Assembly: GCA_019638795.1 (NCBI GenBank)
Contig: JAHBTB010000001.1
Location: forward strand, 186,001 to 250,000
Source: Fimbriimonadaceae bacterium
Lineage (GTDB): Bacteria > Armatimonadota > Fimbriimonadia > Fimbriimonadales > Fimbriimonadaceae
Direction of reading: 5' to 3'
DNA: 64,000 bases
Shown: positions 58,420-60,092 of the stretch, in pieces
How positions within the stretch are numbered: position 1 is the stretch's first letter
How the letters are laid out: the number at the start of each line of letters is the position of its first letter
The notes under the pieces: model-generated
Seen by the model: only the letters and a program-made list of their open reading frames with translations
Databases searched by the model: none
What the model was told of the DNA's origin: nothing
Made by a program: the position numbers and the translations under genes

Positions 58420-58995
58420 ATGTCTTGGCGTCAGGCGGCCCTAGCCTCGTCGGTGTTGTTGGTCTCGGCCGCTTCGGCCCAGGGCCGCGACCCGAGCAAG
58501 GAGCACTACTGGTTCTTCAGTGCCGGTGCCGGCTTCGGCCAGCCAGTGCTGGGTAGCGAGGACATCCGGCGAGGCGGCATCTACACGGTCGGCCTCGCGA
58601 TGCCCTGGAACGGGCTCAAACTCTTCGGCCATCCGGGTCAGTTTGTGGCCCAGGGCTACTACATGTTCACCAAGGGCGGCGGCTTCGAGGACATCCCCGT
58701 CAACGGGTTGCACACCTACGGGGTCCTCGCCAGCGCGCGCTATCACAACCATTGGTTCAAGGGCGTCGACACGTTTTTCGAAGTCGGTTGGGGGTTCTGC
58801 TACAGCGACCGGTCGACCCGCGACCTTGACTCGTTGTTCAATTCGACGCCGACCATCGGCATCGGGGCCAGCTGGGCCAGCGGCGACGACCTCGTTTTCG
58901 CCCAAATCCGCTGGTGGCACATGTCGAACGGCGGCACCGACGGCAACAACCAGGGTCTGAACCAGATCCAGTACATTGTCGGCGTCAAGTTCTGA
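58420..58995 (+). CDS. PagL-like lipid A 3-O-deacylase (acyloxyacyl hydrolase)
   Basis: The protein has 191 residues and a signal peptide (residues 1-20). The rest alternates in short amphipathic strands as in an 8-strand outer-membrane barrel. The C-terminal catalytic signature of PagL is clear: HMSNGG followed by NNQGLNQ, with the His-Ser pair in H-x-S-N. It ends in F, as outer-membrane barrels do. PagL removes an acyl chain from lipid A in the outer membrane. The tgt start overlaps its stop (TGATG). Confidence 0.85.
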   Translation: MSWRQAALASSVLLVSAASAQGRDPSKEHYWFFSAGAGFGQPVLGSEDIRRGGIYTVGLAMPWNGLKLFGHPGQFVAQGYYMFTKGGGFEDIPVNGLHTYGVLASARYHNHWFKGVDTFFEVGWGFCYSDRSTRDLDSLFNSTPTIGIGASWASGDDLVFAQIRWWHMSNGGTDGNNQGLNQIQYIVGVKF

Positions 58996-60092
58996 TGGCG
59001 GTCTCATTTGAGTTGCTGGGGGTGTGCCCCGTCACCGGGGCGCGCCGCGGCCGGTTGACGACGCCCCACGGCACCGTCGAGACCCCCGCCTTCATGCCCG
59101 TCGGCACCCAAGGCAGCGTCAAGGGAGTCAGTTGCGAGGAGTTGGAGGCGATGGGGTACCAGCAGGTCCTGGCCAACACCTACCATCTGGAACTCCGGCC
59201 CGGCTCCGACCTGGTCGAGCGTGTCGGCGGCCTGCACCGGCTGATGGGTTGGCGGGGGTCGGTGCTCACCGACTCGGGCGGCTACCAAGTGATGTCCCTC
59301 TCCTCGATGCGCAAGATATCGGACAAGGGCGTCCGGTTCAAGTCGCACCTCGACGGGACCGAGATGTTCCTCACGCCCGAGCGCTCGATCGAGATTCAGG
59401 GCCGGCTCGGGGTCGACATTGCCATGGCCCTGGACGAGTGCCCTCCTTACCCCTGCACCCGCGACGAGGCCGCCCAAGCGATGGCGCGGACCCACCGGTG
59501 GGCACCCCGCAACCTCGCCGCCCGCCGCGAGGGCCAGGCCGTCTTCGGCATCGTCCAGGGTGGCGTCCACGAAGACCTGCGCCGCGAGTCGGCCGACTTC
59601 ATTTCCTCGCAGGATTTCGACGGCTTCGCCGTCGGAGGGGTCAGCGTCGGCGAACCGACCGAGATGCAGTACCCCGTCGTCGCCCTGACCACGCCCCTCC
59701 TCCCCGCCGACAAGCCGCGCTATTTGATGGGCGTCGGCCACCCCGCCGACATCATCCACGCCGTTTCTTGTGGGATCGACCTCTTTGACTGTGTCCTCCC
59801 CACCCGGATGGCGCGACATCATGCCCTCTACACCTTGCCAGGCCGCGTGAACACCCTCAACAAGAAGTGGGAGGACCATATGGGGCCGTTCGACGAGGGC
59901 TCGGTCTTCCCTCCCCTGGAACGCTACTCGGCGGCCTACATCCGGCACCTCTTCAAGGCTGGGGAGGCCCTTGGCCCGCGGCTGGCGTCGCTGCACAACC
60001 TCTGGTTCTATGCCCGGCTGATGCAAGAAATCCGTGACGCGATCAGCGCCGGGACGTGGGGCCAGTTGGTCGAACGTTATGCCCGCGCCTGA
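58995..60092 (+). CDS. tgt: tRNA-guanine transglycosylase lacking the cysteine zinc ligands
   Basis: The protein has 365 residues. Catalytic Asp D93 is in LTDSGGYQVM and nucleophile D265 in DLFDCVLPTR. GIVQGGVHEDLRR and GGVSVGEPTEM match bacterial TGT, which puts preQ1 (or queuine) into tRNA position 34. The usual CxCxxC zinc motif is gone: gap-free alignment to GPLDPxCxCxxCxxYS puts S303, F305 and L308 at the three cysteine positions, while the fourth ligand, H334 in LHNLWFY, stays. The enzyme may be zinc-free or altered. No queuosine biosynthesis gene is visible in the window. Confidence 0.9.
   Translation: MAVSFELLGVCPVTGARRGRLTTPHGTVETPAFMPVGTQGSVKGVSCEELEAMGYQQVLANTYHLELRPGSDLVERVGGLHRLMGWRGSVLTDSGGYQVMSLSSMRKISDKGVRFKSHLDGTEMFLTPERSIEIQGRLGVDIAMALDECPPYPCTRDEAAQAMARTHRWAPRNLAARREGQAVFGIVQGGVHEDLRRESADFISSQDFDGFAVGGVSVGEPTEMQYPVVALTTPLLPADKPRYLMGVGHPADIIHAVSCGIDLFDCVLPTRMARHHALYTLPGRVNTLNKKWEDHMGPFDEGSVFPPLERYSAAYIRHLFKAGEALGPRLASLHNLWFYARLMQEIRDAISAGTWGQLVERYARA

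Follow-up and report, generated by a model that had tools for sequence, protein, structure and literature searches.

The window, as we call the whole 64-kb stretch of DNA that was analyzed, carries a tgt gene encoding a tRNA-guanine(34) transglycosylase (TGT) without its zinc cysteines (Table 1). TGT, which acts on the wobble position of particular tRNAs, is a described zinc enzyme, a drug target and a tool for RNA labeling. The reading frame opens with an ATG at 58995, closes with a stop codon at 60090-60092 and contains no internal stop. Its product scores 484 bits against the Pfam family PF01702 and 445.7 bits against TIGR00430, the bacterial TGT equivalog, which has a cut-off of 306.75. 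No other PF01702 match occurs in the whole 2.70-Mb, 99%-complete genome, and the idea of a paralogue accompanied by a normal TGT copy elsewhere was rejected on this ground. Two other identities were rejected: an archaeosine TGT (TIGR00432), against which the protein reaches 140.1 bits for a cut-off of 350, and a QTRT2-like non-catalytic subunit, recognized by a replaced catalytic aspartate where the window TGT has both D93 and D265. The stop codon of the PagL-like gene shares one base with the tgt start (TGATG), an overlap that suggests translational coupling of the two genes.

Table 1. Genes and diagnostic codons of the tgt locus, in window coordinates
Feature	Position	Strand	Basis
PagL-like lipid A deacylase gene	58420..58995	+	PF09411, 5.5e-11
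tgt, tRNA-guanine(34) transglycosylase, 365 aa, without zinc cysteines	58995..60092	+	ORF, Pfam, TIGR00430
D93 codon, catalytic Asp, general acid/base (Asp102 of Z. mobilis)	59271..59273	+	role per excerpt of PMC4425180
H249 codon	59739..59741		H in 71/75 clade proteins, mostly T/K in other TGTs
D265 codon, catalytic Asp, nucleophile (Asp280 of Z. mobilis)	59787..59789	+	role per excerpt of PMC4425180
H276 codon	59820..59822		H in 62/75 clade proteins, mostly G in other TGTs
Site of the zinc motif (C-x-C-x2-C), here S303-V-F305-P-P-L308	59901..59918	+	gap-free alignment with Z. mobilis TGT
H334 codon, sole zinc-ligand position left	59994..59996	+	H in 75/75 clade proteins

A phmmer alignment with the Z. 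mobilis enzyme runs without a gap over the zinc site and sets S303, F305 and L308 against its three cysteines and H334 against the histidine of its "HN", just as an earlier note on this DNA had claimed. Where a Cys3-His site has three cysteines and a histidine, the window TGT thus presents S303, F305, L308 and H334, and it is best classed from its sequence as a variant that lacks the zinc site, not as a standard TIGR00430 member. In the literature, the barrel and the zinc domain are called hallmarks of TGTs (PMC6165067), the zinc residues are said to be highly conserved (PMC4425180) and zinc is described as required for activity (PMC9508795, with reference to the E. coli mutagenesis of Chong 1995).

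The earlier note's statement that both catalytic aspartates are intact also holds, and D93 and D265 are aspartate in 277/277 aligned TGTs, zinc-type and zinc-lacking alike. Selectivity for preQ1 over queuine is set by Cys158 and Val233 of Z. mobilis TGT according to an excerpt of PMC3660597; the corresponding C149 and V218 of the window TGT are kept in 75/75 proteins of its clade. The TGT homodimer is described with an aromatic hot spot (excerpt of PMC5395182), and its equivalents Y311 (72/75 clade proteins), Y315 (75/75) and H318 (75/75) are all present in the window TGT. Hot-spot residue F92 of Z. mobilis is replaced by L83, a position occupied by F in 65/75 and by L in 10/75 clade proteins.

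Spread of the cysteine loss

We compared five families of the order, namely the window genome's own (f1), its neighbor (f5) and three others (f2, f3 and f4). The full C-x-C-x2-C motif is absent from 72/72 f1 and f5 genomes read at the site, the window genome included, and a conserved S-x-F stands in its place; these 72 are whole genomes with a readable site and leave out further f1 and f5 genomes, such as the same-genus G001, whose TGT match stops at residue 265 at a contig end, and a few others without a match. Every one of the 17 genomes read of f2, f3 and f4 keeps the motif, as does each of the 40 Armatimonadota loci read outside the order. Because the f1 and f5 genomes read lack the motif and those read of f2-f4 and the rest of the phylum keep it, the sequences place a single loss on the stem shared by f1 and f5, which form a starred (well-supported) group on both trees described below. 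Zinc-type and zinc-lacking TGTs of the order are approximately 55-62% identical. The comparison with homologues from Armatimonadota and other phyla that the earlier note had called for thus finds its expectation of related genomes with the same substitutions confirmed across the clade, and finds cysteine loss in other phyla as well.

A few loci stand apart from this distribution. An extra TGT locus in an f1 genome that is 73% complete (L166, on contig 25 of G100) is 49% identical and has the cysteines; it is probably contamination, possibly a transferred copy, and was kept out of the 72. Another incomplete genome of the window's family holds a partial, divergent second TGT locus (L164, on contig 413 of G061). 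Some Armatimonadota carry a second TGT-like paralogue that is approximately 36% identical, keeps the cysteines and lies remote from the other rows of the tree (L194 and L195).

Genomes were then drawn from other phyla and orders. The titles of the source loci supplied the group names, a Cryomorphaceae locus standing for Bacteroidota and an Akkermansiaceae locus for Verrucomicrobiota. In Bacteroidota, the motif is absent from 22/30 loci (L213-L242; 31 genomes searched, one not read), and 12 of these 22 TGTs also have Q for the histidine that serves as fourth ligand, a complete loss of the zinc site within a major phylum. Eight of the 29 Verrucomicrobiota loci, from 28 genomes, lack the motif, four of them again with Q for the histidine. 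Within the order of a Rhodospirillaceae genome the motif is missing from a single locus out of 28 (30 genomes searched, two without a match). A search of named genomes, whose listing is biased to relatives of the query, gave 47 motif-lacking loci out of 80, three of them from Rhodospirillaceae.

With the columns of the site removed, a quick tree of 159 rows and a careful tree of 56 rows each need eight state changes; the starred branches force at least four, and a one-change topology occurs in 0% of 200 bootstrap trees. Several forks are open inside Bacteroidota and Verrucomicrobiota, where the number of losses is unsure. That all zinc-lacking TGTs go back to one origin was rejected, as the trees need about eight changes and set zinc-lacking rows next to zinc-type members of the same groups. 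The earlier note had said that a natural zinc-free TGT would be a structural novelty; it was right about the loss of the cysteines, which is no isolated oddity and is more general than it stated, with cysteine-less TGTs in several phyla.

Two further observations concern Verrucomicrobiota. A set of Akkermansiaceae-type loci (L048, L051, L061, L066, L068, L071 and L243-L246, among others) have H-P-H for the motif, one residue shorter and in some cases with Q at the fourth ligand; this could be another ligand set or another plug. Both trees place L255, drawn as Verrucomicrobiota, with alphaproteobacterial TGTs; it is either a transfer or a mis-binned contig.

Replacement residues and predicted structure

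Constraint on the site was read from 75 distinct zinc-lacking proteins of the f1/f5 clade. S303 is S in 72/75 and F305 is F in 74/75, 71/75 proteins have T, L or V at position 308, and H334 and N335 are each invariant (75/75). Position 333 is L in 74/75 clade proteins versus Y in 13/13 zinc-type sisters of the order. Such conservation is the pattern expected of a remodeled, selected core, not of decay. Alternative Cys or His ligands near the former site were rejected after residue counts around it in the clade proteins, of which 67/75 have no cysteine in residues 285-341. In 61 other zinc-lacking TGTs, the position of H334 is occupied by H in 41 and by Q in 20.

An AlphaFold2 model of the window TGT, built with 130 sequences, has a mean pLDDT of 95.9 and contains the (beta/alpha)8 barrel of TGT with its C-terminal subdomain. 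It superposes on Z. mobilis TGT (1pud) with a Z of 53.5 and an rmsd of 1.3 over 363 residues, 1pud being one of numerous tied entries for this protein in the structure matches. The fold is thus predicted to survive without the cysteines. The model of a zinc-type sister (L149) reaches 95.1 overall and 98 in block 301-310, versus 92 for the same residues of the window model, and a short helix spans 306-310 in L149 versus 306-308 in the window TGT. Since AlphaFold2 takes no account of metals, both models are silent on metal content. The structure matches listed include no zinc-lacking TGT, and all solved TGT chains in the residue-level alignments examined have the cysteines. A cryo-EM structure of E. 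coli TGT has also been reported (excerpt of PMC13416341).

Pathway context and competing explanations

The genome of the window carries further genes of the queuosine pathway. QueA is found in 59/61 relatives, this genome included, and in 21/21 genomes picked for having a zinc-lacking TGT; in G229 the zinc-lacking tgt lies approximately 48 bases behind queA on the same strand. The window genome also has a QueD-QueC-QueE cluster, in which QueC exceeds its equivalog cut-off and adjoins a QueD-like gene (71.1 bits for TIGR03367, under the cut-off of 89.25, with PF01242 over its cut-off) and a QueE-like radical SAM gene (under all QueE equivalog cut-offs, with Radical_SAM over its cut-off). tRNA-Asn, -Asp, -His and -Tyr are all present, with GUN anticodons in a U33-G34-U35 context. 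A C-x2-C-x2-C tail rich in cysteine is retained in QueC, and an H-x-H in QueD; we take these to be their zinc ligands. Both enzymes are listed as zinc-requiring in an excerpt of PMC9508795; as their motifs are kept, the loss of zinc is not common to the whole queuosine pathway.

It is highly probable that the window TGT is an ordinary preQ1-inserting enzyme in which a metal-free core has replaced the structural zinc, with substrate and role unchanged. In tRNA-Asn, -Asp, -His and -Tyr the enzyme would put preQ1 in the place of guanine-34, and QueA and later steps would then turn the inserted preQ1 into queuosine. A single event before f1 and f5 split would have removed the enzyme's C-terminal structural zinc site; F305 and T, L or V at position 308 would pack where the Cys-Zn cluster used to be, with S303 placed near H334 and a co-change of the neighboring Y333 to L. 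The zinc ion would act as a scaffold of the subdomain for dimer formation and tRNA binding, outside catalysis, and a scaffold of this kind could for that reason be replaced in several bacterial lineages. The zinc of TGT is probably dispensable; that the window TGT binds no metal, is active and packs its core in this way is what we infer. Some observations sit less easily with such a core: H334 is kept in every clade protein, although a zinc-free site need not require a histidine, and the model has a lower pLDDT and a shorter helix at 301-310 than that of the zinc-type sister. Against a working zinc-free TGT, excerpts of the literature call zinc necessary for activity (PMC9508795) and a hallmark of the family (PMC6165067).

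The invariant H334 also favors a metal bound here or nearby by other residues, either H334 with acidic residues or H249 and H276, both of which were gained and are common in the clade (71/75 and 62/75). We consider this improbable, as S303 and F305 would be unusual zinc ligands, 67/75 clade proteins offer no cysteine anywhere in 285-341, and other zinc-lacking TGTs have even exchanged the histidine for Q (20/61). Part of f5 has T, K or R at 249 and N or R at 276, yet S303 and F305 stay, and therefore these histidines do not travel with the loss. Avoidance of zinc throughout the genome, as in a zinc-poor habitat, would explain only why the motif was lost and is compatible with a metal-free core; it would account for the recurrence in several phyla, and an excerpt of PMC9508795 discusses how queuosine enzymes relate to metal supply. 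As a cause it is nonetheless improbable, since QueC and QueD of the same genome retain the motifs of enzymes that the same excerpt describes as zinc-requiring. No small zinc ribosomal proteins, sought as a general check on zinc avoidance, were found within the 64-kb window.

The earlier note had suggested that the loss may mark a change of substrate or role, which would make the protein act on another base or another RNA, or serve as a non-catalytic partner. The lost site is called a TGT hallmark (excerpt of PMC6165067), which speaks for such a change, but this is the sole TGT of a genome that has QueA, QueD-QueC-QueE and the four U33-G34-U35 tRNAs; its catalytic residues are invariant, C149 and V218 are kept and the TIGR00430 equivalog cut-off is passed, so that the suggestion is very unlikely to be correct. 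Practically no weight falls on a sequencing or assembly error, a frameshift or a pseudogene: the frame is open through conserved flanks, nothing was found in favor of an error, and close relatives lack the cysteines too, with a like site in all 72 genomes read from two families and in records of independently named genomes (L032-L044 and L052).

Meaning and comparison with known systems

Should the majority of sampled Bacteroidota, and entire families elsewhere, do without the cysteines, a requirement for zinc would be a property of some TGT lineages only, and a supposed hallmark of the enzyme would become a dispensable, repeatedly lost part. The presence of both TGT types within one order makes the structural role of zinc testable by natural comparison. 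Models of zinc-lacking TGTs that are based on Z. mobilis may err on the dimer side. A more far-reaching reading, which we hold only tentatively and think rather unlikely, is that bacteria exchanged the structural zinc of TGT, described as a hallmark from bacteria to humans, for a metal-free plug on at least four occasions, each time with a different plug that would also have reshaped the surface for dimerization and tRNA docking and led to another oligomeric or tRNA-binding mode. The plugs would then be S-x-F in Fimbriimonadales, H-P-H and DNYTC/VNYT in Verrucomicrobiota, GFDNxVC and others in Bacteroidota, and V-x-C-x2-S in Rhodospirillaceae.

What appears to be new here is the natural occurrence of TGTs without zinc ligands, of which we found no report in the literature searched; most subscription papers lie outside its coverage, and this is weak evidence of absence. 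The zinc-bound form is already known. Characterized bacterial TGTs (Z. mobilis, E. coli and T. maritima) share with the window TGT the fold, the catalytic aspartates, the preQ1 pocket, most of the aromatic residues of the dimer hot spot and the pathway context; they differ in having C-x-C-x2-C ligands where the window TGT has S-x-F-x2-L, and F92 of Z. mobilis is L83 here. QTRT2, the non-catalytic subunit of eukaryotes, has the same fold and is the reverse case, as it keeps the zinc site and has its catalytic residues replaced (excerpts of PMC6165067 and PMC4425180). The closest precedent is another enzyme acting on tRNA, bacterial glutamyl-tRNA synthetase (GluRS). Its zinc-binding domain occurs in nature both with zinc and without it, and a domain lacking zinc has proved functional (excerpt of PMC4381286). 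GluRS is an unrelated protein with an unrelated domain and has been tested experimentally, whereas the window TGT is known from its sequence and a model.
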